A DNA stretch of 64,000 nt, taken from the NCBI RefSeq assembly GCF_041320665.1, contig NZ_CP166730.1:3968001-4032000 (forward strand), written 5' to 3'. This DNA comes from Comamonas sp. GB3 AK4-5 (GTDB taxonomy: Bacteria; Pseudomonadota; Gammaproteobacteria; Burkholderiales; Burkholderiaceae_C). Below are positions 838 to 37,168 of the stretch, one piece after another. The position numbers and the translations under genes were made by a program. The notes below the pieces were generated by a model. The model saw only the letters and a program-made list of their open reading frames with translations. It was not told where the DNA came from and did no database searches. Within the stretch, counting starts at the first letter, position 1. Each line of letters starts with the position of its first letter.

Positions 838-3624
838 ATGCACTTCTTCACGTCCTGGTTTGGTGATTTTTTGCGCCGCCGCCACAACTTGCGGCTGTTT
901 CGCCGCAGTGCGCTGCCAGGCATGGAACGTGGCCCCGGCGGCAAGCCCATCGCCCCGGCGGCCGTACCCGAACAGCTGACCCGCGCCCTGTGGCGTGCGG
1001 CCTGCGACGACATTCCCGGCGCGCTGGTGCGCCTGCAGTCCCATGAAGATGGGCTGAGCGATACCGAGGCGGCCGAGCGCCTGCAGCGCATAGGCCCCAA
1101 CGAGGTGGACCACGAAAAGCCCCTGCCCTGGTGGCAACACCTGTGGCAGTGCTACCGCAACCCTTTCAACGTGTTGCTGACGCTGCTGGCCATCGTCTCC
1201 TGGGCCACCGAGGACATCCAGGCCACCGTGGTCATTGGCGCCATGGTGCTGCTGTCCACGGTGATCCGCTTTGTGCAGGAAGGGCGCTCGCAGCGCAGTG
1301 CCGAGCAGCTCAAGGCCATGGTGAGCAGCACCGCCACCGTGATCCGCCGCGACCTGGGCACCGAGGCCGCCGAAGTGGCCGAGCGCTACTTTGATGCCCG
1401 CATCAACTCCCGCCGCCCGGCAGCACGGCGTGAAGTGGCCATGCGCGAGCTGGTGCCTGGCGACCATATCTGGCTGTCCGCCGGCGACATGATTCCCGCC
1501 GACTGCCGCGTGCTGACGGCCAAGGACCTGTTTGTGGCACAAGCCGCCATGACGGGAGAGTCGCTGCCGGTGGAGAAATTCGCCGAACGCCAGCAGCTGT
1601 CCGACGGCATTCTGGAGCAGACCAATCTGCTGTTCATGGGCACCAATGTGGTGTCGGGCGTGGCCACGGCCGTGGTGGTGGCCACAGGCAACCAGACCTA
1701 TTTCGGCCAACTGGCCCACCGCGCCATCGCCACCGACCGTGCGCCCACCTCTTTTCAGGCCGGAGTCAACAGCGTCTCCTGGTTGCTGATCCGCTTCGCC
1801 CTGGTCATGGTCCCCCTGGTGCTGCTGCTCAACGGCTTCACCAAGGGCGACTGGATGGAGGCCTTTCTCTTCGCGCTGTCCGTGGCCGTGGGCCTGACAC
1901 CGGAGATGCTGCCCATGATCGTCACCTCCACTCTGGCCAAGGGTGCGGTGGTGCTCTCGCGCCAGAAAGTCATCGTCAAGCGGCTGGACGCCATCCAGAA
2001 CTTCGGCGCCATGGATGTGCTGTGCACCGACAAGACCGGCACGCTGACGCAGGACCGCATCGTGCTGGAGCGCCACACCGATGTGTTCGGCAACCCCTCG
2101 CGAGAGACCTTGCGCCTGGCCTGGCTCAACAGCTTCCACCAGACCGGTCTGAAGAACCTGCTGGACCGCGCCGTCATCGAGCACATGGACCTGAACCCCG
2201 ATGCCGCGCTCACGCAGAACTGGCAGAAGGTGGATGAGATCCCCTTTGACTTCGAGCGCCGGCGCATGTCGGTGCTGCTGCGCCCCGAGGACGCCCAGGG
2301 CGACACGCTGCTGGTGTGCAAGGGCGCGGTCGAGGAAATGCTGTCCGTGTGCACCCTGGTGCGCGACGGCGATGCCACCGTGGCCCTGGATGCCACCATG
2401 CTGGCACGCGTGCGCGCCGTGACCGAGGGGCTGAACACCCAGGGCCTGCGCGTGGTGGCCGTGGCCAGCCGCCAGCTGCCTGCCAGCCCCTTGTCCAGCT
2501 ACAACTACGGCGTGGCCGATGAGGCCGAGCTGACACTGGTGGGTTACATCGCCTTTCTGGACCCACCCAAGGAGTCCACCGCACCCGCGCTGCAGGCCCT
2601 GGCCGAGCATGGTGTGGACGTGAAGGTGCTGACCGGCGACAACGAGCTGGTCGCCGCCCGAGTCTGCGAGCAGGTGGGCCTGGCCGTAGGCCAGCCCGTG
2701 ACCGGCCCGCAGGTGGAGCGCATGAGCGACTCCGCACTGGCGGCTGCCGTGCAAAAACACCAGCTGTTCGCCCGCCTCACCCCGCTGCACAAGGAACGCA
2801 TCGTGCACGCCCTGCGTGCCCAGGGCCGGGTGGTGGGCTTCATGGGAGATGGCATCAACGATGCACCCGCCCTGCGCGCCGCCGACATCGGCATCAGCGT
2901 GGACGGCGCGGTGGACATCGCCAAGGAAGCAGCCGACATCATCTTGCTGGAAAAAAGCCTGATGGTGCTGGAGCAAGGCGTGGTCGAAGGCCGCCGCACC
3001 TTCTGCAATATGCTGAAGTACATCCGCATGACGGCCAGCTCCAATTTTGGCAACGTGTTCTCGGTGCTGGTGGCCTCGGTGTTTCTGCCGTTTTTGCCCA
3101 TGCTGCCACTGCAGCTGCTAGTGCAGAACCTGCTGTACGACATCTCGCAGATCGCCATCCCCTTCGACAAGGTGGACCCGGAATCGGTGCGCCAGCCCCT
3201 GCGCTGGAACCCCCAGGACATTGGCCGCTTCATGCTGTGTTTCGGGCCGCTGAGCTCGCTGTTCGACATTCTGTGCTTTGGCATGATGTGGTGGATCTTC
3301 CAGGCCAACACGCCCGAGCAGCAAACGCTGTTCCAGTCCGGCTGGTTTGTCGTCGGCCTGCTGACCCAGACCTTGATCGTGCACATGATCCGCACGCCAC
3401 GCCTGCCCTTTATTGAAAGCCATGCCGCCTGGCCGCTGCTGCTGGCCACCGTGGTCATCATGGCCATCGGCGTGTTCCTGCCCATGGGACCGCTGGCCGA
3501 CTACTTCAAGATGGAAGCGCTGCCGCCCCTGTACTGGCCCTTCCTGGTCGCCATCTTGCTGGGCTATGCCACGCTGACCACCGTGGTCAAGCGCCACTAC
3601 ATCCGCAAGTTTGGCTGGCAGTAA
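838..3624 (+). CDS. mgtA: magnesium-translocating P-type ATPase MgtA
   Basis: A 928-residue P-type ATPase that should import Mg2+ across the inner membrane at the cost of ATP. The phosphorylation motif DKTGTLT begins at about Asp398, the actuator loop carries TGES, and the hinge motif GDGINDAP lies near residue 675. TPEMLPMIVTSTLA before the phosphorylation site and the LVQNLLYDISQIAIPFD segment near the C-terminus are typical of MgtA/MgtB rather than Ca2+ or heavy-metal pumps. The length is normal for the family. The ATG is preceded by AAGGAG. It follows the efflux-channel gene by 22 bp and lies upstream of an mgtC-like gene, a common partner in Mg2+ homeostasis. No leader ORF or Mg2+ riboswitch can fit in the short gap in front of it. 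Confidence 0.95.
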   Translation: MHFFTSWFGDFLRRRHNLRLFRRSALPGMERGPGGKPIAPAAVPEQLTRALWRAACDDIPGALVRLQSHEDGLSDTEAAERLQRIGPNEVDHEKPLPWWQHLWQCYRNPFNVLLTLLAIVSWATEDIQATVVIGAMVLLSTVIRFVQEGRSQRSAEQLKAMVSSTATVIRRDLGTEAAEVAERYFDARINSRRPAARREVAMRELVPGDHIWLSAGDMIPADCRVLTAKDLFVAQAAMTGESLPVEKFAERQQLSDGILEQTNLLFMGTNVVSGVATAVVVATGNQTYFGQLAHRAIATDRAPTSFQAGVNSVSWLLIRFALVMVPLVLLLNGFTKGDWMEAFLFALSVAVGLTPEMLPMIVTSTLAKGAVVLSRQKVIVKRLDAIQNFGAMDVLCTDKTGTLTQDRIVLERHTDVFGNPSRETLRLAWLNSFHQTGLKNLLDRAVIEHMDLNPDAALTQNWQKVDEIPFDFERRRMSVLLRPEDAQGDTLLVCKGAVEEMLSVCTLVRDGDATVALDATMLARVRAVTEGLNTQGLRVVAVASRQLPASPLSSYNYGVADEAELTLVGYIAFLDPPKESTAPALQALAEHGVDVKVLTGDNELVAARVCEQVGLAVGQPVTGPQVERMSDSALAAAVQKHQLFARLTPLHKERIVHALRAQGRVVGFMGDGINDAPALRAADIGISVDGAVDIAKEAADIILLEKSLMVLEQGVVEGRRTFCNMLKYIRMTASSNFGNVFSVLVASVFLPFLPMLPLQLLVQNLLYDISQIAIPFDKVDPESVRQPLRWNPQDIGRFMLCFGPLSSLFDILCFGMMWWIFQANTPEQQTLFQSGWFVVGLLTQTLIVHMIRTPRLPFIESHAAWPLLLATVVIMAIGVFLPMGPLADYFKMEALPPLYWPFLVAILLGYATLTTVVKRHYIRKFGWQ

Positions 3625-3686: not shown

Positions 3687-3866
3687 CGAAGCCTGGGGCT
3701 TCGTAGCTGCCCCTTTGGAAGACGGCCATACAGTGCTTGATGCTTTGTTGCCTGCCCTTGCCGTACCAAAGTACTGTCTGCGGGCACGCGTCGCGCCTCA
3801 AGCACTGTCTGGCCGTTGGGTTGTTACTTAAGGGCCCGCTGTACTGCGCTGGCCCACTCCGGCTGG
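3687..3866 (+). repeat. R1 dispersed structured repeat, copy A
   Basis: About 180 bp shared with copies at 6904-7085 (opposite orientation) and 25672-25836. The core at 3722-3816 is 95 nt and folds into three nested stems: outer arms of 19 nt (ACGGCCATACAGTGCTTGA against 3798-3816, one mismatch), a middle stem (3750-3757 with 3782-3789) and an inner GTAC-CAAA-GTAC hairpin at 3763-3774. Flanking similarity includes GAAGCC/GGCTTC on the left and GGCCCACTCCGGC on the right. It contains no plausible gene. It lies in the 348-bp gap between mgtA and the mgtC-like gene. Confidence 0.85.
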
Positions 3867-3887
3867 CAAAAAACACCATGTTTTTTG
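3867..3887. other. AT-rich perfect palindrome
   Basis: CAAAAAACA-CCA-TGTTTTTTG is a perfect 9-bp inverted repeat directly after R1 copy A. It has an A-tract on one side and a T-tract on the other, but no GC stem, so it is a poor intrinsic terminator. Its role is unknown. Confidence 0.5.
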
Positions 3888-3972: not shown

Positions 3973-4701
3973 ATGCAACATTGGCCCGCCTTCGATCTTT
4001 CCGCCACGCTCAGCACGCTGGCCAGCCTGGCCTTGGCTTTCTGCCTGGGCGCATTGATTGGCTTTGAGCGCCAGATCCGCCAGCGCACGGCCGGCCTGCG
4101 CACCAACACCCTGGTGGCCGTGGGCGCAGCGGTGTTCGTCGATCTGGCGGTGCGCTTTTATGTCCTGTATGGCGGCTCCCCCAGCCCCATGCAGGTCATT
4201 GCCTATGTGGTGTCGGGCATCGGCTTTCTGGGCGCCGGCGCCATCATGAAGGAAGGCGCCAATGTCTCCGGCCTCAACACCGCCGCCACGCTGTGGGGCT
4301 CGGCCGCCGTGGGCTGCTGCGCCGGCGCCAAGCTGCTGCCCGAAGCCATTCTTGCCGCCCTGTTCGTGCTGGCGGCCAACACTTTGCTGCGCCCGGTGGT
4401 CAACCGCATCAACCGCCAGCCCATGCAGGAGGAGTTCAGCGAAGCCACCTATGCCGTCTATGTGATTTGCCGCCACCCCCACCAGTCCGAGATCCGCGAA
4501 AAACTGGTGGAGTGGATGGACCAGGCCAGCTACCCCGTGCGTGACATCGACCACCATGCCTTCGGCCAGGGCAACACCGAAATCGAGGCCACGCTGTACG
4601 CCACCGCCGTGGAGGGCGACGAGCTGGACAAGATCATGACGCGGCTGGAAGCCGAAGAAGGCGTGCTGCAGGCCTTCTGGAGTTCGCGGGCGGAGGATTG
4701 A
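3973..4701 (+). CDS. mgtC: MgtC/SapB-family membrane protein
   Basis: 242 residues. The N-terminal half holds four to five membrane segments with the family signatures LGALIGFERQ (about residues 24-33) and GFLGAGAIMKEG (about residues 81-92). The C-terminal 90 residues form a soluble ACT-like domain. MgtC proteins of pathogens modulate the F1Fo ATPase and adaptation to low Mg2+; family members in environmental bacteria are mostly uncharacterised. Position downstream of mgtA on the same strand supports a role in Mg2+ or membrane-potential homeostasis, but the 348-bp gap and the palindrome before it suggest its own promoter. The C-terminal domain argues for the MgtC rather than the short SapB form. 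Confidence 0.88.
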   Translation: MQHWPAFDLSATLSTLASLALAFCLGALIGFERQIRQRTAGLRTNTLVAVGAAVFVDLAVRFYVLYGGSPSPMQVIAYVVSGIGFLGAGAIMKEGANVSGLNTAATLWGSAAVGCCAGAKLLPEAILAALFVLAANTLLRPVVNRINRQPMQEEFSEATYAVYVICRHPHQSEIREKLVEWMDQASYPVRDIDHHAFGQGNTEIEATLYATAVEGDELDKIMTRLEAEEGVLQAFWSSRAED

Positions 4702-5002: not shown

Positions 5003-6085
5003 ATGATTTCCAGCCTGCTCTCCTCCGCCCGACTGCGCCGCAGCCTGATCGCCATGGTGTTGGGCCTGGCCATGGCCGCCATCTTTGTGGCCGACACCAT
5101 GACGGAATACGCGGTGGCAGCGGCGGTGTTCCACACGGCAGTCATTCTGGTTGCGGTGCGCTGGTTCAGCCCGCGTACCGTGGTGGCACTGACGGTGCTG
5201 TGCATTGTGCTGACGGTGGTGAGCTTTGCCCTCACGCCCGGCGGGCTGTACCGCGTGGGCCTGGTCAACACCGGCATCAGCATTCTGGCCATCGCCATCA
5301 CCGCCTACCTGGGTCTAAAGATGGTGGCCGCCCAGACCGCCGCCCATGAGGCGCAAGCACAGCTGCTGCACATCGCACGGGCAACCAGCCTCGGCGAGTT
5401 GACGGCCTCCATCGCGCATGAAGTCAACCAGCCGCTGGCAGCCATCGTCACCAGCAGCCAGGCCGGCCAGCGCTGGCTCAACCACCAGCCGCCCCAGCTG
5501 GAAAAGGCCCACCAGGCATTGCAGCGCATCCTGGCCGATGCCGAGCGCGCCAGCAACGTCATCACCCGCATCCGTGGCATGGCGCGCGGCGAAGCCCCGC
5601 AGCGCCAGTCCTTTGTGCTTGAAGATGCAGCGCGTGAAATGGTGGCGCTGTCGCATGGTGCGCTGGAGCAACGCGGCATTGCCGTGCGCTGGGATTTCGC
5701 CCCCAATCTGCCTGCGGCCTGGGCCGATCGCATCCAGATACAGCAGGTGGTGGGTAATTTGCTGCTCAATGCCATTGACGCCATGGATGCCGACCATTTG
5801 CAGCCCGAGATCACCATCACTGCACGCCGCCTGGGCGAAGACCAGCTGCAGCTGACGCTGGCCGACTGCGGCAGCGGCCTGTCTCCCGCCGTCCAGTCCC
5901 ATTTGTTCGATGCCTTCTGGACCACCAAATCGCACGGCATGGGTCTGGGCCTGACCATCAGCCGCAGCATGGTGGAAGCCCACGGCGGCCGCATCTGGGC
6001 CGAGCCGCGCGGCGAGGGCCTGCCCGGCACGCAGTTTCACATCAGCCTGCCGGCAGCACCAGCTGCCAAGGACGCCCACCCATGA
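5003..6085 (+). CDS. membrane-bound sensor histidine kinase (FixL/DctB-like)
   Basis: 360 residues from the ATG at 5003; an upstream TTG at 4928 in the same frame is less likely because the ATG begins the first membrane segment. Four hydrophobic segments lie in residues 12-105. A dimerisation/phosphotransfer helix follows, with SIAHEVNQP and the phosphoacceptor His139. The ATP-binding domain has an N box (NLLLNAIDAMD), a G1 box (DCGSGL) and a G2 box (GMGLGLTISRS). No separate periplasmic sensor or PAS domain is seen, so the signal is probably sensed in or near the membrane. The gene overlaps the next one by 4 bp (ATGA), so the two are translationally coupled as a two-component system. The stimulus is not evident. 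Confidence 0.9.
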   Translation: MISSLLSSARLRRSLIAMVLGLAMAAIFVADTMTEYAVAAAVFHTAVILVAVRWFSPRTVVALTVLCIVLTVVSFALTPGGLYRVGLVNTGISILAIAITAYLGLKMVAAQTAAHEAQAQLLHIARATSLGELTASIAHEVNQPLAAIVTSSQAGQRWLNHQPPQLEKAHQALQRILADAERASNVITRIRGMARGEAPQRQSFVLEDAAREMVALSHGALEQRGIAVRWDFAPNLPAAWADRIQIQQVVGNLLLNAIDAMDADHLQPEITITARRLGEDQLQLTLADCGSGLSPAVQSHLFDAFWTTKSHGMGLGLTISRSMVEAHGGRIWAEPRGEGLPGTQFHISLPAAPAAKDAHP

Positions 6086-6720
6086 ACAGCCCAGCCTCCT
6101 CCTCACCCACCGCCATGGTCTATGTGGTGGACGACGACAGCTCGGTACGCGCCGCCATCGAAGACCTGCTGGCCTCCGTCGGGCTGGCCGTGCAGGGCTT
6201 TGGCTCCACCGGTGAATTCACCGAACACTGGCGCAGCACGGCCCGCGAGCTGCCTTCCTGCCTGGTGCTGGATATCCGCATGCCGGGCCAAAGCGGCCTG
6301 GAATTCCAGCGCCAGATGCAGGAGCTGGGTGTGGATCTGCCCGTGATCTTCGTCACCGGCCATGGCGACATCCCCATGAGCGTGCAGGCCATGAAGGGCG
6401 GTGCCATCGAGTTTCTGACCAAGCCCTTTCGCGAACAAGAGCTGCTGGACGCCATCCAGCAAGGCATTGAACTGGACCGCTCACGCCATGCCCAGGCCCA
6501 GACCGAGCAGTCACTGCAGGCCCAGTGGGACAGTCTGTCTGCCGGCGAAAAAGACGTGGTGCGGGGCGTGACGGCAGGGCTGCTGAACAAGCAGGTCGCG
6601 GCCGAGCTGGGTGTCAGCGAAATCACCGTCAAGGTGCGCCGCGCCCAGGCCATGCGCAAGCTGGAGATCAAGACCCTGGCTGAGTTGGTGCGCGTGGTGG
6701 ACCGGCTGACCCCCCCCTGA
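6082..6720 (+). CDS. FixJ-family two-component response regulator
   Basis: 212 residues. A receiver domain (about residues 12-127) has the acidic pocket Asp17-Asp19, phosphoacceptor Asp64 in LDIRMPG, Thr92 and Lys114 in LTKPF. A LuxR/FixJ-type DNA-binding domain with GVSEITVKVRRAQAMRKL occupies the last 60 residues. It should be phosphorylated by the kinase encoded just upstream and then activate transcription. The start overlaps the kinase stop by 4 bp. The C-terminus ends in Pro-Pro because the final codons and the TGA lie in the first bases of an R2 repeat. The target genes are unknown. Confidence 0.92.
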   Translation: MNSPASSSPTAMVYVVDDDSSVRAAIEDLLASVGLAVQGFGSTGEFTEHWRSTARELPSCLVLDIRMPGQSGLEFQRQMQELGVDLPVIFVTGHGDIPMSVQAMKGGAIEFLTKPFREQELLDAIQQGIELDRSRHAQAQTEQSLQAQWDSLSAGEKDVVRGVTAGLLNKQVAAELGVSEITVKVRRAQAMRKLEIKTLAELVRVVDRLTPP

Positions 6721-6899: not shown

Positions 6900-6903
6900 A
6901 GCC

Positions 6904-7085
6904 TGCCGGAGCGGGCCTGAGACGCGCAGCGGGCATTGAATCCCACCCCACAACGGCCAGACCGCACTTCAGGCGCGACGCGCGTCCGCGGACAGTACTG
7001 GGGTACGGCAAGGACGCGCAACAAAGCATGAAGCGCGGTATGGCCGCCACCAAATGGATCACCACGAAGCCGCCAGGCTTCGCTA
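6904..7085 (-). repeat. R1 dispersed structured repeat, copy C
   Basis: Inverted relative to copies A and B. The 95-nt core is at 6953-7047, with outer arms at 6953-6971 and 7029-7047. Read on the minus strand, the outer stem differs from copy A at two paired sites where both arms changed (A-T to C-G, G-C to C-G); the middle stem is GCGCGTCC/GGACGCGC with all eight pairs intact; the inner hairpin is GTAC-CCCA-GTAC. It lies just beyond the terminator of the tRNA-Gln gene. Confidence 0.85.
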
Positions 7086-7148: not shown

Positions 7149-7225
7149 TGGCAGGGGAGGAAGGACTCGAACCCTCGCATGCCGGAATCAAAATCCGGTG
7201 CCTTGACCAACTTGGCGACTCCCCT
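7149..7225 (-). tRNA. tRNA-Gln (anticodon UUG)
   Basis: 77 nt on the minus strand with the CCA encoded. The acceptor stem is AGGGGAG/CTCCCCT with discriminator G. The anticodon stem CCGGA/TCCGG encloses the loop TTTTGAT, giving anticodon TTG. The T arm has GAGGG-TTCGAGT-CCTTC. A terminator follows directly and an extended -10 promoter precedes it, so it is a single-gene unit. Confidence 0.95.
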
Positions 7226-8804: not shown

Positions 8805-8865
8805 TCAACTCTTCAAAAAGACCTAACCATCGCACAGCCTATAAAACTGGCACAGACCCTGGCCA

Positions 8866-8971
8866 GGGACAGCGAGCAAGGGCCGCCCCGCAGCGAGGCT
8901 GTCGTCCCCCTGCCCGCGAGCGCAGCGAGCGAAGAGCGGGGGGAAGGCGCCGCAGGCGACGCAGGGGGGTG
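8866..8971 (+). repeat. R2 gene-end repeat, full length
   Basis: Reads GGGACAGCGAGCAAGGGCC, then CCCGCAGCGAGG, then a palindromic CCCGCGAGCG/CGAAGAGCGGG block and CAGGGGGG at its end. It sits in the gap between the MFS and EamA genes and ends 6 bp before the EamA stop codon. Nearly identical to 29846-29950. Confidence 0.85.
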
Positions 8972-12489: not shown

Positions 12490-14781
12490 TTATTGGGCCG
12501 GGGCCGGCGCTGCAGGCGCTGCAGGCGCTGCAGGCGCTGCAGGCGCTGCAGGCGCTTCTGCAGCAGGCGCTGGCGCTTCGGCAGGGGCCGGCACCACGGC
12601 AGCGGGGACGGCGGCGCGCTGGAGCTTGGCGGGCAGCAGCTTGTCCAGCCACTGCAGCTGCCAGGCGCCGGCCAGGGCCAGCACCGCCACCAACACGCCA
12701 ATCGTGATCCAGCGACCACGGTGGCCGTCGGCATAGGGGTCGTTGGCGCTGAGCTTGGCCGAGGCCGGGACCTTGGCCGTCTGCGACAGGGCATCGCCCA
12801 GGCGCAGATTGATGATCATGCGTCCGTTGATGGCCCAGCCGCTGGCATCCAGGATGGGACCCAGGCTGCGCTGGCGCAGCTTGAGCCAGGCAATCAGCAT
12901 GCTGGGGCAGGAAATGGCCAGCACAATGCCCAGCAGGCCCACGGGAATCCAGGGGCCCATCTCGATGAATTTGCCAAAGATGCCCACCATGACCGCGCTG
13001 ATCGAGCCCAGAGCCACGCCAATGGCGGCCACGGTGCCCACATCGGTCTTGCGCGCAGCAGGAGCGGCAGGTGCTGCAGCGGGCGCCGCTTCCGTATTGG
13101 CGGCATCTGCCAGCTTGTTGGCCGAGGTGTCCAGCCTGACGGTCACGGCGTCTTGCTTGGCCGAGGCGCGCTTGGCCACCTGCTCTTCCACCATGCGCAG
13201 AAACTTCTTGTACGGCGAGAAGAAGGCCTGGGCAATGCTGGTGGGGTTCTCGATGATCTTGGTGATGGTGGCATCCCAGTCCTGGCCATCGCGGTCGTAG
13301 AACACGCCGTTGCGGCCCACCATCAAATAGTCCACATCACCGGCCGTGAAGGCGGCCACGATGTGGCGTTTGACGCCGTCACGGCGGCATTCGCAATAGG
13401 CCAGATAGACCTTGGCCAGCCCGGCCAGCCCGGCGTGGGCATTGGGGTCGGTCACATCCACGGTCAGGTCGCAGCTGCGACCATCCATGAACAGCGTGCC
13501 GGCCTGGAAGGCGGCGGCTTCGCTGCGGCTGTAGAAGTCGGCAAACGAGACAAAGTTGTTCAGCAGGCGCAGCAGGTCACGCTGCAGGCGGATGAGCTTT
13601 TCCAGATCCCTGGCCTGGGCACCATGGTCTTTTTCCTGGGTGTCACGCGCTATCAGTGCCTGCAGCGTGGCTTCGGCGCCGCCATCGAGCAAGTCCTGAA
13701 CTTCGGCCTGGGTCAGCTGACCCAAGGGGCTGCTGGGGTGGTCGGCCAGCCACTGCTGGCAAGGGGCCAGCTGCGTCTTCAACGCCTGCCACTGCGCCGC
13801 ATCCAGCGTGCGCTGCGCGCCCAGCAACGGGGCCACGGCATGGGTGGCCAGGGCCTGCAGCGCAGCCGCCCAGGCCGGGTTCACGCCCTCGGTCAGCGGC
13901 AGCACGCCTTCAGGGGTGATGGTGGCCAGCGGCAAGGCGGCAATCGCCTCCGAGGCCGAGGTCAGCTGCTCCGCACCCAGAAGGGCATAGCCTTCCACGC
14001 TGGGGCTCAGCGGGGCCTGGGCCTTGGCGTCAAAGGCAGCCAAGCGGCAGCGTGCAAAAAAGTCTTCCACTTTGGCATCCACGGCCGTCAGTGCCTGAGC
14101 AGCCGCCACGGCCTGCTCCTGCTCCTGCTCCAGCGTGCAGTGGTGCTCCTGCACCTTCACATGCCAGGCATGGATGGCGCGCACATCGGCAAAGAAGGCA
14201 TCCAGCTGGGCCTGGCCCATGCCAGGTGCATCATCCACACCGGTTTCGCTGCCATACAGATCCATGATGCGTTGCACCAGGGCCTGCTGGCCGCTTTCCT
14301 CCGGCAGCGTGACCGGGTTCAGCAAGCCATCGCCATTGAATGGCAGGGCATTGAGCATGACCAGACGCTCACGCACATCGGCCAGGCTGACGCTGTCCGC
14401 GCCTTCGCGGCCCAGCAGATTCAGCACGCGCTGCGCTTCGGCATGCAGGGCGGCGCCGCCAGGCTGGGCAATGTCCAGGCTGGCCAGTTGCAGCACATCG
14501 CTGCCGGAGGCCAGCACCTCGGGGTCGCGCACCTGGGCCACCGCCCACTGGCAGGCAGCAATCAGCTCTGGCGCACGGATGCGGCCGTCATGGTCCAGGT
14601 CAATCAGGTCCAGGGTTTCGGTATCGAACTCGATGCCCCGGGTCGGGCAGGCCAGGGCCACCCACAGTTTCTTGTCCAGCGAAGCGATGTTCGCAATATC
14701 TTGCCCCGTACGGATGGCCACCTGCTCCACGCCACCTGCGCGGAAGAACTGCCATGCGTACCCTGTCTGTTGCTGCTGCAT
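12490..14781 (-). CDS. large membrane protein with an EF-hand calcium loop, function unknown
   Basis: 763 residues from the ATG at 14781. Near the N-terminus lies a textbook EF-hand loop, DLDHDGRIRAPE at residues 61-72, with Asp or Glu at positions 1, 3, 5 and 12 and Gly at 6. A weaker NGDGLLN stretch occurs near residue 157. The middle 400 residues are helical and soluble. Two or three hydrophobic segments follow after an Ala/Pro linker (about residues 585-655 and 705-725), and the tail is an Ala-Pro repeat. No signal peptide is visible, so the loop probably faces the cytoplasm unless topology is unusual. Its function is not recognised. The C-terminal tail is encoded by a 9-bp tandem repeat that could vary in length. 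Confidence 0.8.
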   Translation of the reverse strand: MQQQQTGYAWQFFRAGGVEQVAIRTGQDIANIASLDKKLWVALACPTRGIEFDTETLDLIDLDHDGRIRAPELIAACQWAVAQVRDPEVLASGSDVLQLASLDIAQPGGAALHAEAQRVLNLLGREGADSVSLADVRERLVMLNALPFNGDGLLNPVTLPEESGQQALVQRIMDLYGSETGVDDAPGMGQAQLDAFFADVRAIHAWHVKVQEHHCTLEQEQEQAVAAAQALTAVDAKVEDFFARCRLAAFDAKAQAPLSPSVEGYALLGAEQLTSASEAIAALPLATITPEGVLPLTEGVNPAWAAALQALATHAVAPLLGAQRTLDAAQWQALKTQLAPCQQWLADHPSSPLGQLTQAEVQDLLDGGAEATLQALIARDTQEKDHGAQARDLEKLIRLQRDLLRLLNNFVSFADFYSRSEAAAFQAGTLFMDGRSCDLTVDVTDPNAHAGLAGLAKVYLAYCECRRDGVKRHIVAAFTAGDVDYLMVGRNGVFYDRDGQDWDATITKIIENPTSIAQAFFSPYKKFLRMVEEQVAKRASAKQDAVTVRLDTSANKLADAANTEAAPAAAPAAPAARKTDVGTVAAIGVALGSISAVMVGIFGKFIEMGPWIPVGLLGIVLAISCPSMLIAWLKLRQRSLGPILDASGWAINGRMIINLRLGDALSQTAKVPASAKLSANDPYADGHRGRWITIGVLVAVLALAGAWQLQWLDKLLPAKLQRAAVPAAVVPAPAEAPAPAAEAPAAPAAPAAPAAPAAPAPAQ
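12508..12556. repeat. 9-bp tandem repeat in the EF-hand protein gene
   Basis: The unit GCAGGCGCT is repeated head to tail about five times, encoding Ala-Ala-Pro units near the C-terminus. A near-perfect tandem repeat of a multiple of three can expand or contract without frameshift. Confidence 0.8.
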
Positions 14782-23765: not shown

Positions 23766-25649
23766 ATGCTGCAATCAGCCTCCATGCTCCAGCCCCTGCC
23801 CCAACCGCCTCTTTGCGCACGCACCGGCCACCCCACAGTCTCTCTCTTTTTTGCAGCGCACTGGCGGCGCTGGCTGGCCTCGTTGGCCTTGCTGTGTACC
23901 AGCCTGTGGCTGGCGGGCTGTGCGGGTCTGCCCGCCCATGTCCAGCGCACACCCTCCACGGCCTTGTCTCAGCCGGAGCAGACCGCCTTGGGCAAGATGG
24001 TGGCCGCACAGCGCATCCAGGCCAAAACGCCCTACCACTCTGGCTTTGTGCTGCTGGGCGGAGCCGAAGCTGCCTATACCGGTCGCCTCGCACTGATCCA
24101 GGCCGCACAAAAGACGCTGGACATCCAGTACTACGCCATCCATGCCGACGCCAGCACGGCCAAGCTGCTGCAGGAGATCGCACGGGCCGCAGGGCGCGGG
24201 GTACGCGTGCGCATTCTGCTGGATGACTTTCACAGCGCAGGCAAGGATGCGCAGGTCATGCGCATGGCCTTTGTCCCCGGTGTGGAAATGCGCATGTTCA
24301 ACCCGGTGATGGGGGCACGCAGCTCACCGCCGCTGCGTGCACTGAGCACGCTGACCGACTTCTCCCGCGCCCAGCAGCGCATGCACAACAAGCAGCTGAT
24401 TGCCGACAACATGGTGGGCATTGCCGGCGGCCGCAATCTGGGCGATGCCTATTTCGATGCGCTGGACAGCGACAACTTCATTGACCTGGACATCCTGGCC
24501 GCCGGCGCCGTGGTGCGCCAGCTCTCACGCAGCTTCGACAGCTATTGGAACAATGCGCGTGCCTACCCTGTGGAGTCCCTGCTCAGCCTGTCCGAGCTGG
24601 ATGCCATGCTCAGCCCCGAGCAACAGGCTCGCATGCAGGCCCACCATAGCCGGAGCGAGCCCAATCCCCGCCAGGCCGAACAGGCCGCCACCCAACAGGC
24701 ATTGCTGGCCTTGCCCCCCATGGTGCTGGAAAGCGCGCCCTGGATCTGGGCACCCGGCCTGGTGCTGGCCGACCAGCCCGCCAAGATCGCCCTGCCCTCA
24801 GACAACGAAGCCCCTGCGGCCGATGCCCTGGCCGAAGCCGAAGCCGAAGCCGCAGCCGCAGCCGCAGCCGCAGCCGCAGCCGAGCCTGCCCCGCTGATAC
24901 AGACCAGTCCCGCCAGCCGCCGCCAGGCTGCATCTACCAACGCCGGCACAGGCAGCCAGCAGGCCTTGCGCCGGGTGCTGGCCCCCATGGATGCGCAAAG
25001 CAATGTGGTCGACGGGCTGTTGACCCTGGTCGACCTGGCACGCAGCAAGCTGCTCATCGTTTCGCCCTATTTCGTACCGGGCGCCGACATGAAGGCGGCC
25101 TTCGCCCGCGCCCTCGCCCGCGGTGTGCAGGTCCGCATCCTGACCAACTCCCTGGCCTCCAACGATGCGCCGCTGGCCCATGCCGGCTACGCCCGCCACC
25201 GCAAGGAGCTGCTGGCCATGGGGGTGCAGCTGTATGAGCTGCGCAGCCTGCAAACAGGTGATCAGCACTCCACCCTGCGCGGGGCCGCCAGCCAGGTCAA
25301 TGGTGCCAGCGGTGCCTCCCGCGCCATGCTGCATAGCAAGCTGATGGTGGTGGACGAGCAACTCACCATCGTGGGCTCCATGAATCTGGACATGCGCTCC
25401 CAGCTGCAGAACACCGAAATCGCCCTGCTGGTGGCATCGCGCAAGCTGTCCGGGCAGGCGCAGCGCCACATCAGCGCCACCCTGGCCGAAAGCGCCTGGC
25501 ATGTCACGCTGGGGGCCAACGGCAAGCTGCTGTGGCAGGCCCCGCCCGAGCGCGACTGGGGGGATCAGACCACCGAGCCCGATGCTAGCTTGCCGCTGCG
25601 CATGATGATTCACCTCATTGGCCCGTTAGCCCCCGACCACCTGCTGTAA
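23766..25649 (+). CDS. phospholipase D / cardiolipin synthase C-type lipoprotein
   Basis: Up to 627 residues. Two HKD motifs are present: HNKQLIADN in the first half, with GGRNLGDAYF after it, and HSKLMVVDE in the second half, with GSMNLDMRSQ. This two-domain layout fits ClsC/YmdC cardiolipin synthases. WRRWLASLALLCTSLWLAGC forms a lipoprotein signal with a lipobox Cys at residue 52, which is late, so the real start may be further in. Between the catalytic halves lies an insert with an Ala/Glu tract encoded by hexanucleotide repeats (24826-24882). The enzyme should transfer phosphatidyl groups between membrane lipids. No ymdB-like partner is adjacent. Confidence 0.85.
   Translation: MLQSASMLQPLPQPPLCARTGHPTVSLFFAAHWRRWLASLALLCTSLWLAGCAGLPAHVQRTPSTALSQPEQTALGKMVAAQRIQAKTPYHSGFVLLGGAEAAYTGRLALIQAAQKTLDIQYYAIHADASTAKLLQEIARAAGRGVRVRILLDDFHSAGKDAQVMRMAFVPGVEMRMFNPVMGARSSPPLRALSTLTDFSRAQQRMHNKQLIADNMVGIAGGRNLGDAYFDALDSDNFIDLDILAAGAVVRQLSRSFDSYWNNARAYPVESLLSLSELDAMLSPEQQARMQAHHSRSEPNPRQAEQAATQQALLALPPMVLESAPWIWAPGLVLADQPAKIALPSDNEAPAADALAEAEAEAAAAAAAAAAAEPAPLIQTSPASRRQAASTNAGTGSQQALRRVLAPMDAQSNVVDGLLTLVDLARSKLLIVSPYFVPGADMKAAFARALARGVQVRILTNSLASNDAPLAHAGYARHRKELLAMGVQLYELRSLQTGDQHSTLRGAASQVNGASGASRAMLHSKLMVVDEQLTIVGSMNLDMRSQLQNTEIALLVASRKLSGQAQRHISATLAESAWHVTLGANGKLLWQAPPERDWGDQTTEPDASLPLRMMIHLIGPLAPDHLL
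24826..24882. repeat. tandem GCCGAA/GCCGCA hexanucleotide repeat
   Basis: About nine head-to-tail hexamers in the phospholipase D gene: three to four GCCGAA units followed by about five GCCGCA units, encoding Ala-Glu then poly-Ala. It lies in the linker between the two catalytic domains. Length changes by one unit would keep the frame. Confidence 0.85.
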
Positions 25650-25671
25650 ACACATTGTCCAGACGGCTTGG

Positions 25672-25836
25672 TGGTGCCTCTTTTGGAGGCGGCCATACAG
25701 CGCTTGATGCTTTGTTGCACGCCCTGGCCGTATGGAAATACTGTCTGCGGGCGCGCGTCGCGCCTCAAGCGCTGTCTGGCCGTTGTGGGGCGAAGGCAAA
25801 CGCCTTGCTATTTTTTCAGGCCCACTCCGGCCGGCG
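25672..25836 (+). repeat. R1 dispersed structured repeat, copy B
   Basis: The 95-nt core is at 25689-25783, with outer arms at 25689-25707 and 25765-25783. Relative to copy A one outer pair is C-G instead of T-A, one middle-stem pair is C-G instead of T-A, and the inner hairpin is GTAT-GGAA-ATAC instead of GTAC-CAAA-GTAC, so both sides of each stem changed together. It lies between the convergent phospholipase D and dusC genes and ends 18 bp before the dusC stop codon. Confidence 0.85.
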
Positions 25837-25854: not shown

Positions 25855-26898
25855 CTATAAAACCCGGGGCAGACTGTCCGGGTCGCTGGGGGCCCAGTCC
25901 AGTCCGTACTGTTGATGCTGGGCGCGAATCCAGTCGCCCACATCCTGCTGCACCGTCATCACGCGCACCGTCTGAAAAGCGGTTTCCGCTTCCGGATAGC
26001 GGCGGCGCATCAGGTTCAGCCATTGCTTGAGCCGGCCGGCGCGCTGGCCGGGGTTGAGGTCGCGGCAGACCATGTCCCAAAAGCGCTGCAAATGGGGCAG
26101 CATCTGCGCCCAGGGCACCACCGGAGGCTGCTCGGCGGGCACGGCATCGGCCAGGGGAAAGCCTTCAGCCACAGCGGCACGCAGCGCCAGCGCCAGGCCG
26201 GGGTCGGCCACGCTGCCACGGCCCAGCATCAGGTCCTCGCAGCCCGAACGCTCGCGGCAGCGCAGCGCATCCTGCACGTTCCAGATCTCGCCATTGGCAA
26301 TCACCGGCACGCGCACCGCCGCTTTGATCGCGGGAATCAGCTCCCAATAGGCCGGCGGCCGATAGCCATCGGCCTTGGTCCGGGCATGGACCACGATTTC
26401 GCAGGCCCCGCTCTCGGCCATGGCCTGGGCGCACTCGCGCATCAGACCGGTGTCGTGAAAACCCAGGCGCATCTTGGCCGACACCGGTAATTCCGCCGGC
26501 ACGGCGCGGCGCACGGCCGCCACCAGCCGGGCAATGGATTCCGGGTCTTGCAGCATGGACGCCCCGCCGCCATGGCGGTTCACCACCTTGGCCGGGCAGC
26601 CAAAGTTCAAATCTATCCCCTCAGGCCCCAGTCGGCACAGATTGGCCGCGTTTTCGGCCATGCTCACCGGGTCCGAGCCCAGCAGTTGGGCGCGCACCGG
26701 CACACCTGCCAGCGTGCGACTGCCGTGGTGCAGCTCGGGCATATAGCGCTGGAACACCCGGTCGGGCAGCAGCGAGCCGCTGACGCGGATGAATTCGGAC
26801 ACGCAGCGGTCCACACCACCCACCTGGGTCAGCACATCGCGCAAGACAAAGTCCAGCAGCCCTTCCATGGGAGCCAGCAATATTTTCATGGTGCTCAT
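25855..26898 (-). CDS. dusC: tRNA-dihydrouridine synthase DusC
   Basis: 347 residues. The N-terminus has LLAPMEGLLD, the FMN-binding start of Dus proteins. The catalytic Cys101 lies in LNFGCPAK, followed by GGGASMLQ, VSAKMRLG and VHARTKADGY. The enzyme reduces a specific uridine of tRNA with FMN and NADPH; the DusC branch in E. coli acts on U16. The C-terminal helical domain ends near residue 335. GAGG lies before the ATG at 26898; an ATG 9 bp downstream is also possible. The gene faces the phospholipase D gene across R1 copy B. Confidence 0.92.
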   Translation of the reverse strand: MSTMKILLAPMEGLLDFVLRDVLTQVGGVDRCVSEFIRVSGSLLPDRVFQRYMPELHHGSRTLAGVPVRAQLLGSDPVSMAENAANLCRLGPEGIDLNFGCPAKVVNRHGGGASMLQDPESIARLVAAVRRAVPAELPVSAKMRLGFHDTGLMRECAQAMAESGACEIVVHARTKADGYRPPAYWELIPAIKAAVRVPVIANGEIWNVQDALRCRERSGCEDLMLGRGSVADPGLALALRAAVAEGFPLADAVPAEQPPVVPWAQMLPHLQRFWDMVCRDLNPGQRAGRLKQWLNLMRRRYPEAETAFQTVRVMTVQQDVGDWIRAQHQQYGLDWAPSDPDSLPRVL

Positions 26899-29480: not shown

Positions 29481-29694
29481 GGAAAACGAAACGAAAACAG
29501 CGGTTGAAAAACGAAAGCTGGCAATTGTCTGTGAAACGCTGCCGGGACGCACGTCCTATTGCTGTAGCCATTTGCACCAGTACGGCTGTCAGCAGCGCCT
29601 TGCCGTGGTATAGCGGATGTGATAGCAGGCGCTTTCACGCCGCGCCGCGCTGCAGGCACATCCATACAGCAGCGTGAAAGCGGGTGACTTCGCC

Positions 29695-29743
29695 AGAGAC
29701 AGCGAGCAAGGGCCGCCCCGCCGCGAGGCTGTCGTCCCCCTGC
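29695..29743 (+). repeat. R2 gene-end repeat, left half only
   Basis: GAGACAGCGAGCAAGGGCCG through GTCGTCCCCCTGC, then the similarity stops. It is a direct repeat, 151 bp upstream, of the full copy at 29846. The 478-bp gap 29481-29958 holds these two copies and nothing else recognised. Confidence 0.8.
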
Positions 29744-29845
29744 TGCAAAAGTGGGGAGCGCGATCACGATGTCCCCATGGAGGTGGTTGGCCTCTCGCCC
29801 AACTCCCAAGCAACCCATACCGTGTGAGCCCGCACGACCCAACAC

Positions 29846-29950
29846 AGAGACAGCGAGCAAGGGCCGCCCCGCCGCGAGGCTGTCGTCCCCCTGCCCGCGA
29901 GCGCAGCGAGCGAAGAGCGGGGGGAAGCCGCGTAGCGGCTCAGGGGGGTG
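29846..29950 (+). repeat. R2 gene-end repeat, full length
   Basis: Complete copy ending in CAGGGGGGTG, 8 bp before the stop codon of the aldehyde dehydrogenase gene. The left half duplicates 29695-29743. Confidence 0.85.
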
Positions 29951-29958
29951 TCGTGTGT

Positions 29959-31538: not shown

Positions 31539-31600
31539 TCAAACCAAGGGCACGAGGCAGAGAACTGACGTTGTCGCATGCAGCGGCCCTTTCGCCAGGG

Positions 31601-31698
31601 CACCGCGCAAGGGCCGCCCCGCAGCGACGGTGCCGTCCCCCTCCCGCATTGCGCAGCAAAGCGAGAGAGGGGGAAGCCGCAAAGCGGCTCAGGGGGTG
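31601..31698 (+). repeat. R2 gene-end repeat
   Basis: CACCGCGCAAGGGCCGCCCC to GGCTCAGGGGGTG, ending 2 bp before the stop of the small membrane-protein gene. With the R3 copy it fills most of the 305-bp gap 31396-31700. Confidence 0.8.
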
Positions 31699-31700
31699 CT

Positions 31701-32072
31701 TCACTTTATTTCACGCGGCTGCACATCGGTGATATCGCGGGCCACGCTGGCCAGCACACCGCTGCGCTTGCTGCCGGGAGCACTGGCATCGCTTTCAGAA
31801 GCTGCGGCTTCCGCTGCACCACCAGCGCTGCCGGCACCCATGGCACCGGCCCAGCTGTTCGGACTGTAGAAGGACCAGGCTGCGCCGGGGCGCATGGGCA
31901 TGACCCAAGGCGTCACGGGCCGGCCCGTGAGCTTGGCCCAGAGGGCGCGAGCCCCCCAGACCAGGGCCAGCAGGCTGGCCACCGCCAGCAGGGACACCAG
32001 AAATACTGCGCCCGCTAGCAGCAGGAAGATGCGGGTGGCCCAACGTATGGCCGTGTGAGCGAAATTGTTCAA
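31701..32072 (-). CDS. small membrane protein, function unknown
   Basis: 123 residues. One long or two short hydrophobic segments occupy about residues 9-45 (IFLLLAGAVFLVSLLAVASL), followed by a conserved-looking amphipathic PGAAWSFYSPNSW stretch and an Ala/Ser-rich, partly charged tail. No lipobox is present. The start lies 44 bp after the clpB stop, so it is likely read through from clpB and may be induced with it by heat. No function is recognised. Confidence 0.65.
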   Translation of the reverse strand: MNNFAHTAIRWATRIFLLLAGAVFLVSLLAVASLLALVWGARALWAKLTGRPVTPWVMPMRPGAAWSFYSPNSWAGAMGAGSAGGAAEAAASESDASAPGSKRSGVLASVARDITDVQPREIK

Positions 32073-34792: not shown

Positions 34793-34930
34793 ATATTGCC
34801 CCATGCAGCCGCCCTTGTGCACCTGATCTGCATCAAGTGTCGCGTAGGAGAACCTGCCTTGTGCTCGCAATGCTGCGCCCCAGAGAAAGAAGCGCGGAGG
34901 CGCAAAACTGACAAGGCCCACGCCAGGGCT

Positions 34931-35032
34931 GCCGCGCAAGGGCCGCCCCGCCGCGCTGGTAGCGTCCCCCTGCCCGCGAGCGCAGCGAGCGAAGAGCGGG
35001 GGGAAGGCGCCACAGGCGACTCAGGGGGGTGC
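34931..35032 (+). repeat. R2 gene-end repeat supplying a stop codon
   Basis: TGCCGCGCAAGGGCCGCCCC to CTCAGGGGGGTG. Its last bases encode the final Ala-Pro-Pro and TGA of the AraC-family gene on the other strand. Confidence 0.82.
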
Positions 35033-36991: not shown

Positions 36992-37090
36992 ACATAAGGC
37001 ATGCAAGGCCATCACAACAAGAATTCCCACACGACTTGAGGAAAAATGTTGCGCCCCCAACCGCATAAAACTGGCGCGCTCCAGGCCAGC

Positions 37091-37168
37091 AGACAGCGAG
37101 CAAGGGCCGCCCCGCAGCGAGGCTGTCGTCCCCCAGGGGGAAGCGGCGCAGCCGCTCAGGGGGGGGCC
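37091..37168 (+). repeat. R2 gene-end repeat, short form, supplying the moaE stop codon
   Basis: CAGACAGCGAGCAAGGGCC to CGCTCAGGGGGGGCC. The central CCCGCGAGCG block of long copies is missing. On the minus strand its end encodes the final Ala-Pro-Pro and TGA of moaE. Confidence 0.8.

Follow-up and report, generated by a model that had tools for sequence, protein, structure and literature searches.

The Correia element (CREE/NEMIS) is called unique to Neisseria in a passage of PMC5039591, and the Correia repeat is likewise said to be found only in Neisseria in a passage of PMC2649163. The length of CREE is 104–108 or 153–157 bp. Binding and cleavage of the transcript by RNase III has been reported for the Neisseria elements (PMC2649163). 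The passages on the Correia element in these two papers (PMC2649163, PMC5039591) name no transposase. A second described repeat, the Beta-proteobacterial repeat element (BRE, Hot et al. 2011), is about 90 bp long (75–91 bp) and is present in Acidovorax, Delftia, Polaromonas and Bordetella with 1–29 copies per genome (PMC3110155). BRE is usually intergenic; some copies overlap ORF ends by a few bases and some are arranged in tandem (PMC3110155). The account of BRE, in the passages concerned (PMC3110155), gives no core and no link to the Correia element beyond citing NEMIS as another repeat. ERIC and RUP are MITE-like repeats of about 100–130 bp with inverted ends, the transcripts of which fold (PMC2229807, PMC2759123).

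A repeat element of Comamonas sp. GB3 AK4-5 was compared with these systems. The genome consists of a single contig of 5.05 Mb, and the window, i.e. the whole stretch of DNA that was analysed, comprises 64,000 nt (contig positions 3,968,001–4,032,000). Two covariance models were used: R1, built from 42 copies of the element in this genome (44 nhmmer matches minus two, one partial and one antisense), and R2, a broader model built from 73 sequences. The initial annotation had reported three dispersed copies of a 95-nt element in the window, one of them on the reverse strand. All three are confirmed, and they are listed here together with their neighbours.

838..3624, + strand: P-type cation ATPase gene, upstream of copy A (Pfam E1-E2_ATPase, 1.1e-40)
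3697..3867, + strand: approximate full conserved unit around copy A (column conservation over 42 copies; ends approximate)
3722..3816, + strand: copy A, 95-nt three-stem hairpin core (R1 match 3719–3820, 113.3 bits)
3973..4701, + strand: MgtC family gene, downstream of copy A (Pfam MgtC, 2e-35)
6082..6720, + strand: response regulator gene, convergent with the 6953–7047 copy (Pfam Response_reg, 4e-26)
6901..7072, − strand: approximate full conserved unit around the 6953–7047 copy (column conservation over 42 copies; ends approximate)
6953..7047, − strand: second copy, 95-nt hairpin core (R1 match 6949–7050, 113 bits; downstream of a same-strand tRNA gene)
7152..7225, − strand: tRNA gene, upstream of the 6953–7047 copy (Rfam RF00005)
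23766..25649, + strand: PLD-like domain protein gene, upstream of the 25689–25783 copy (Pfam PLDc_2, 1.3e-37)
25664..25835, + strand: approximate full conserved unit around the 25689–25783 copy (column conservation over 42 copies; ends approximate)
25689..25783, + strand: third copy, 95-nt hairpin core (R1 match 25686–25787, 117.3 bits; 39 nt past the stop codon ending at 25649)
25855..26898, − strand: dihydrouridine synthase (Dus) gene, convergent with the 25689–25783 copy (Pfam Dus, 3.7e-61)

The conserved unit is longer than 95 nt. Column conservation over the 42 copies extends it to about 170 nt, with about 25 nt extra upstream and about 55 nt extra downstream of the core. The core folds as the annotation had described: an outer stem of about 18–19 bp, which always contains a T·C mismatch, is followed inwards by a middle helix and then by a 4-bp GTAN/N'TAC hairpin. 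In the alignment of the copies from this genome, the outer arms of the window copies read GGCGGCCATACAG.... The folding z-scores of the three window copies are −6.4, −7.2 and −5.4, and for each of them none of 200 shuffled sequences folds as well. The paired base changes that had been listed between the copies are correct, provided that the copy labelled B is the one at 25689–25783 and copy C the one at 6953–7047; the outer stem of the latter contains one G·T wobble.

Over the 42 copies, RNAalifold predicts 36 base pairs, and at 12 of these both bases vary while the pairing is retained. The loop-closing pair is C-G in 22 copies, U-A in 17 and G-C in three, and is broken in none. The covariation score of this alignment is 0.176, as against 0.084 in shuffled controls (0/500 shuffles reach 0.176) and 0.043 or less when the partner is slid. 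For the 73 sequences across lineages the score is 0.773, as against 0.188 (shuffled) and 0.091 or less (partner slid), in an alignment that was fitted to the structure, which favours its score. Thus the pairing covaries far above shuffled controls, both within this genome and among diverse sequences. The earlier inference of selection on the fold, or of a mechanism acting on it, is well supported across copies, lineages and orthologous sites (see below), and gene conversion may contribute at the orthologous sites.

The three copies in the window are three of at least 72 close copies in the 5.05-Mb genome. Of 112 BLAST candidates 40 were scored, and all 40 match, so the repeat is no product of chance. 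R1 gave 115 matches at E ≤ 1e-3, a number that includes antisense matches at copies already counted. For R2, 150 candidates were scored and 139 of them match at E ≤ 1e-3; of these 139, 72 reach at least 79 bits. The mean difference between paralogs in this genome, with the tip of the hairpin left out, is 10.4%. A replication-strand bias was considered and rejected: with the contig assumed to start at the origin, 44 of the 72 copies lie in the would-be leading direction of replication. No copies were found in phages, and the plasmid matches amount to one of 73%, in a 761-kb Diaphorobacter record.

The same genome also contains other elements of this kind. A second family has GCCAGTGNCTTTGCGGG arms and a CCC-NNN-GGG linker preceded by another small hairpin (L187–L191 and L045:661–767; six copies read), and about 35 of the R2 matches in this genome, at 33–46 bits, may belong to it. 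In a third family (loci L183, L184, L192, L193 and L194), the core is on a short arm beside a small hairpin, and both are inside outer repeats like GACCCGCTCACAC. This GACCCGCTCACAC-type family starts mostly at stop codons.

The construction of a covariance model and a search of related genomes with it, a check that had been proposed at the outset, yielded matches in the genus, the family, the order, the class and the phylum. At E ≤ 1e-3, R1 has matches in 42 of the 53 congeneric genomes (two of these have 76 and 74, the other 40 have 1–22) and in 81 of the 399 order-level genomes; at E ≤ 1e-6, it has matches in 28 of the 250 family-level genomes. With R2, they are present in 64 of 369 genomes of the class and in 51 of 398 of the phylum, both at E ≤ 1e-5, and 18 of these 51 are from other classes. 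The genome of the window is counted in each of these numbers. In the multi-genome searches the best 10–76 candidates per genome were scored, and the best 10 in the widest searches; because of this, copy counts are lower bounds and absence is weak evidence. Most of the listed matches cover the whole model. Because its E-values are approximate, an isolated weak match may have arisen by chance. Among named genomes, the exact consensus pattern is found in 31 stretches of an Acidovorax metagenome-assembled genome (MAG) and in one stretch of a Delftia MAG.

The fixed core of the family reads GTTGC-helix-CTTGCCGTA-N4-TACTGTCTGCG-helix-GCGCC. Among diverse elements its parts GTTGC..CTTGCCGT..ACTGTCTGCG..GCC stay the same, while the outer stem varies: when the 87 elements of at least 95 nt were grouped into 53 clusters, 17 outer-stem pairs were found each to take three or more Watson-Crick types, and 14 of the 17 to take all four. 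Mean complementarity of the outer arms over 87 elements is 0.86–0.95 at positions 3–10 and 0.59–0.67 at positions 1–2; outside the arms it is mostly about 0.4, with 0.61 at position −1 (87 of 89 alignment rows were used, a few antisense and partial matches among them). Throughout the family the core is constant and the overall length is about 100 nt; the arms differ by subfamily but remain complementary, and they stop at almost the same position. The arm ends behave as terminal inverted repeats would. Of the features of a generic MITE (terminal inverted repeats, no coding capacity, shortness, many copies), the arms and the copy number agree. It is one hairpin family that the covariance models follow through Burkholderiales into other Pseudomonadota. 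No description of the wide family was found in open-licence papers, and it is apparently undescribed. Tandem copies with spacings of about 120 and 222–228 nt are seen in congeneric genomes (L087:1501–1963, L088:1501–1722, L090:1279–1603 and L093:1501–1831).

Two loci from the order search (L154 and L156, family f45) show the relationship with the Correia element. Both carry the Correia repeat as printed in PMC2649163, with the 3′ end exact and one mismatch at the 5′ end. The L156 element is found at 40 or more places in each of two N. gonorrhoeae records (2.17 Mb each), the best place having about 93% identity. R1, which contains only copies from the genome of the window, aligns the Neisseria-type loci L154, L156 and L151 over their full length with 47–49 bits. 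The CREE/NEMIS core, GTTGC..CTTGCCGTA..TACTGTCTGCG..GCC, is the core of the copies studied here. The match to the model is 104 nt long in L154 and L156 and 102 nt in the window copies, and long paired ends and a high copy number are common to both. The Correia element is thus one branch of the wide hairpin family.

There are also differences. The 26-bp Correia repeat that defines CREE (TATAG[CT]GGATTAA...) is absent from the window arms (GGCGGCCATACAG...), which are entirely different. The copies in this genome are therefore relatives of CREE, not CREE. Their core is flanked by conserved segments of 25 and 55 nt, unlike CREE. In length they lie near the CREE values of 104–108 or 153–157 bp without falling into either range, at 102 nt for the model match and about 170 nt for the repeated unit. 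The copies in the window are located after gene 3′ ends; in one gonococcal strain, according to a passage of PMC2649163, 76 CREE are located 5′ of a gene.

Like BRE, the present family has matches in Acidovorax and Delftia and includes tandem partial copies; the length here is 95–102 nt, and that of BRE 75–91 bp. Likened through its published description only, BRE may be another branch of the wide family. The likeness to ERIC and RUP (100–130 bp or so, inverted ends, folding transcripts) is also one of description only. A search of Rfam over the whole window at the gathering threshold gave tRNA only. At a permissive threshold the best E-value was 0.023, for a microRNA family below its cut-off, and no match reached 0.01 in five loci. 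The statement in the initial annotation that no named family was known for the element thus holds as far as Rfam is concerned, but not in full, as the core and the approximate length match those of the Correia element and the described BRE may be related.

The position of the copies relative to genes was analysed with genes called by a custom script for the genome of the window. A same-strand gene is upstream of 38 of the 42 copies. None of the 42 lies between divergent genes, as against 17 divergent gaps among 68 gaps of at least 150 nt. For the 26 copies between convergent genes, a same-strand gene upstream is uninformative on orientation because it is true either way round, and the 16 codirectional contexts give a sense excess of 12 to 4 only. 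The core starts mostly 20–60 nt past the stop codon.

In many other subfamilies the element is placed right at the stop codon. The 70 diverse elements, i.e. the alignment rows from outside the window, were found by the model regardless of genes. In 28 of the 70, a frame of at least 150 codons ends at positions −6 to +7 of the element start; when the test is repeated at 21 other offsets, each of them yields 0–3 of 68, with a sum of 23 (about 1 of 68 per offset). The other 42 of the 70, Neisseria-type elements included, have no long frame ending at the element start. A same-strand gene is upstream of 48 of 66 diverse elements and six of the 66 are between divergent ORFs, according to a rougher ORF call (66 of the 70 were classified, one incomplete element and three in short loci being left out). 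Ten of the 28 ORFs that end at an element start were scanned, and nine have Pfam domains. These include IF-2 (in two genera), a Cpn60-type chaperonin (groEL) and an amidohydrolase, the ORF end of which we take to be UreC. Other subfamilies of the window's genome likewise begin at stop codons: in a further set of 20 loci, a stop codon is present at −1 to +6 of the element in eight, and in four more (L183, L184, L185 and L192) once the partial match is extended to model position 1. The elements are thus found preferentially at gene 3′ ends. Elements with different arms are located directly after infB in two genera (L106 and L121).

A two-armed form of the element is found in the class-level loci. 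In 14 of the 18 loci two model matches are head to head, 2–6 nt apart. The CCC-NNN-GGG linker is exact in 15 of the 18, and one more has a 4-nt spacer. Outer inverted repeats with 20–34 matching bases are present in 13 of the 18, each taken as the best of many offsets and with no shuffled control. The predicted fold of L167 and of L119 is one outer stem with two arms. In at least four of the 18 composite loci (L162, L166, L167 and L173) a long frame ends at the outer repeat. The composites are about 275 nt long (L158–L175, e.g. L167:1365–1636 and L160:1365–1630), and their outer inverted repeats, often CTAGTG..., enclose two Correia-like arms.

The Acidovorax MAG permits a comparison of orthologous sites. 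Where both flanks of a copy could be matched in the MAG, 23 of 24 sites have an element at the corresponding position and in the same orientation. Identity in the larger flanking matches, which are mostly genes, is 81–95%. The single exception is the copy at L010:2338–2441, which is absent from the MAG site L063; the empty site gives no clean ends. In the 23 ortholog pairs, differences were found at 90 of 1,656 stem positions (about 5%), at 35 of 595 unpaired core positions, and at 46 of 92 tetraloop positions (50%). The flanks, 60–90 nt on each side, are 25–36% different, a value that includes gaps and some misalignment. Copies are thus at the same places in the two genomes, with stems several times less diverged than the adjacent intergenic sequence. 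At the base pairs, 18 double changes are seen, all paired in both genomes, and single changes keep the pairing in 23 cases and lose it in 31.

The tip has changed in 17 of the 23 ortholog pairs (one pair was missed by the pattern and read from the alignment). Eight of the changed tips are present among the 42 copies of the window's genome, with chance at 5% for random tips and 21% for composition-matched tips. Copies with a common tip are no more alike elsewhere. Inversion of the loop was considered as a source of the changes and rejected: by reading, the orthologous tips are reverse complements of each other in one of the 17 changed pairs. A hypervariable tip that changes with its closing pair, and often takes the tips of other copies, suggests gene conversion. 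Taken together, the changes at orthologous sites point to exchange of tips between copies plus a constraint on the fold, and conversion alone could also account for them. The low divergence of the core could be the result of concerted evolution.

With moderate confidence, the window element is interpreted as a high-copy subfamily of a wide, non-autonomous, Correia-type hairpin family, which settles at gene ends and is kept, probably, as a 3′-UTR hairpin. The copies would have spread in an old burst, with a putative transposase working on either the arms or the extruded hairpin. Because a gene stays intact when the insertion is at its stop codon or beyond, such sites may have been tolerated, or targeted. 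An inserted copy would be transcribed as part of the 3′ UTR, where the hairpin may be kept as a double-stranded barrier of possible benefit to the host, either because RNase III acts on it, as it is reported to do on the Neisseria elements, or because it blocks exonucleases or read-through. Counting against this reading are the lead of A·C over G·T among mismatches (see below), the 42 of 70 diverse elements not directly preceded by a long frame, the six of 66 between divergent ORFs, the small sense excess in codirectional contexts (12 to 4), and the lack of an effect on intrinsic terminators. With the Correia element as part of a family that spans an order and beyond, many independent lineages become available in which the mover and the function can be sought. 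A repeat with frequent starts at stop codons would connect mobile DNA with the ends of translation and with 3′ UTRs, and the orthologous copies, with their paired changes, slow stems and very fast loop, offer a ready test of selection versus gene conversion.

A more general proposal is put forward tentatively. A single hairpin module of ancient origin, whose core is fixed and whose arms can be freely exchanged but always match, may home to stop codons across Pseudomonadota. It would occur either single-armed, as in Acidovorax and Neisseria, or two-armed, with the arms head to head, a CCC-NNN-GGG linker between them and outer inverted repeats around them, and Correia would be one of its lineages. 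A common recognition of the folded single strand, and not of the arm sequence, would move or maintain all of these forms.

Less probable, yet to be taken seriously, is that the element is a purely selfish MITE of no benefit to the host, the arms being terminal inverted repeats read in DNA by a transposase and the covariation arising from transposition only. The nearly constant length of arms whose sequence differs from subfamily to subfamily is in accord with this, as are the several subfamilies in one genome, the composite loci with outer inverted repeats, and the one presence/absence difference between two genomes. The mismatches are also relevant. Among imperfect outer pairs 3–19, counted at the level of the 53 clusters, A·C occurs 39 times and G·T 11 times. 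A cruder count, which covers the 74 elements in which 10 or more of 14 pairs are Watson-Crick and includes the two end pairs, gives 44 of each, and the copies of the window's genome without the two end pairs give seven A·C and six G·T. Each of the two end pairs is G·U in 40 of these 42 copies. Selection on a sense RNA predicts more G·U than A·C; the lead of A·C therefore argues against a simple sense-RNA role and points to the complementary strand, to DNA, or to biased mutation. A selfish MITE, which would leave no sense-RNA signature, agrees with A·C mismatches that equal or exceed G·T. Against it is the divergence at orthologous sites, 5–6% in stems and core compared with 25–36% in nearby intergenic sequence, since a dead MITE should drift like its surroundings unless gene conversion homogenises it.

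Target duplication, which accompanies insertion of the Correia element, was analysed in the 40 elements with a clear stem end. Three-base identity is present in 4 of the 40 (shuffled mean 0.6, maximum 3), but two-base identity shows no rise, with 2 as against 3.4. By eye, TGA or TAA is found on both sides of the element in L112, L115, L116, L122 and L141.

An immobile, functional structured RNA of the 3′ UTR is an unlikely explanation. Here the conserved loops would bind a protein, the arms would be a free closing helix, and copies would arise by slow duplication. Structured RNAs usually combine an unpaired core that is conserved and helices that change freely, as is seen here. Hairpins that begin at the stop codons of conserved genes, e.g. 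infB in two genera, and same-strand genes upstream (38/42 and 48/66, as given above) are likewise what this explanation would lead one to expect. It does not, however, account well for a number of matches per genome that ranges from 0 to more than 70 within one genus, for tandem and head-to-head arrays, for the absence of a copy at one site, or for a mismatch asymmetry that points to the other strand or to none. A role of the hairpin as an intrinsic terminator was considered separately and rejected, there being no difference between genes with and without a copy: terminators were found in 1/16 and 13/74 of codirectional cases, respectively, and in 12/50 and 9/30 of convergent cases (not significant). 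In a simple terminator scan of the 38 same-strand cases, 4 had a terminator between the gene and the copy and 5 had one after the copy.

REP, BIME and REPIN elements are also dispersed palindromes downstream of genes, and the absence of copies between divergent genes (0/42) recalls them. A REP/REPIN element consists of two short tagged hairpins. Here a single long hairpin (about 100 nt) makes up the unit; it has three nested stems, and its internal loops are conserved. No association with RAYT was found. The initial annotation had raised a possible co-occurrence with a RAYT-like transposase gene. The genome does contain a PF01797 gene; however, no copy is present in the 3.3-kb locus of this gene, and PF01797 is found in 47 of the 53 congeneric genomes, including 10 of the 11 without an R1 match. 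Mobilisation of a REP/REPIN element by a RAYT (Y1) transposase is thus very improbable. Least probable of all is that the core inserts into existing palindromes, the arms belonging to the target, for although the arms differ even between neighbours in one locus (L119, L137 and L148), the same arm is common to many copies of the window's genome, and the reading is disfavoured because mean arm length is constant, with complementarity dropping at the same model position over 87 diverse elements.

The window contains other repeats as well. A dispersed repeat of about 110–118 nt, AGCGAGCAAGGGCCGCCCCGC...GTCCCCC, is located at 8841–8971, 29671–29952, 31572–31702, 34901–35031 and 37065–37134, and is present also in many related MAG loci. 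Short tandem repeats within open frames are found at 12503–12565 and 24817–24892 (GCAGGCGCT units; GCAGCC/GAAGCC units).
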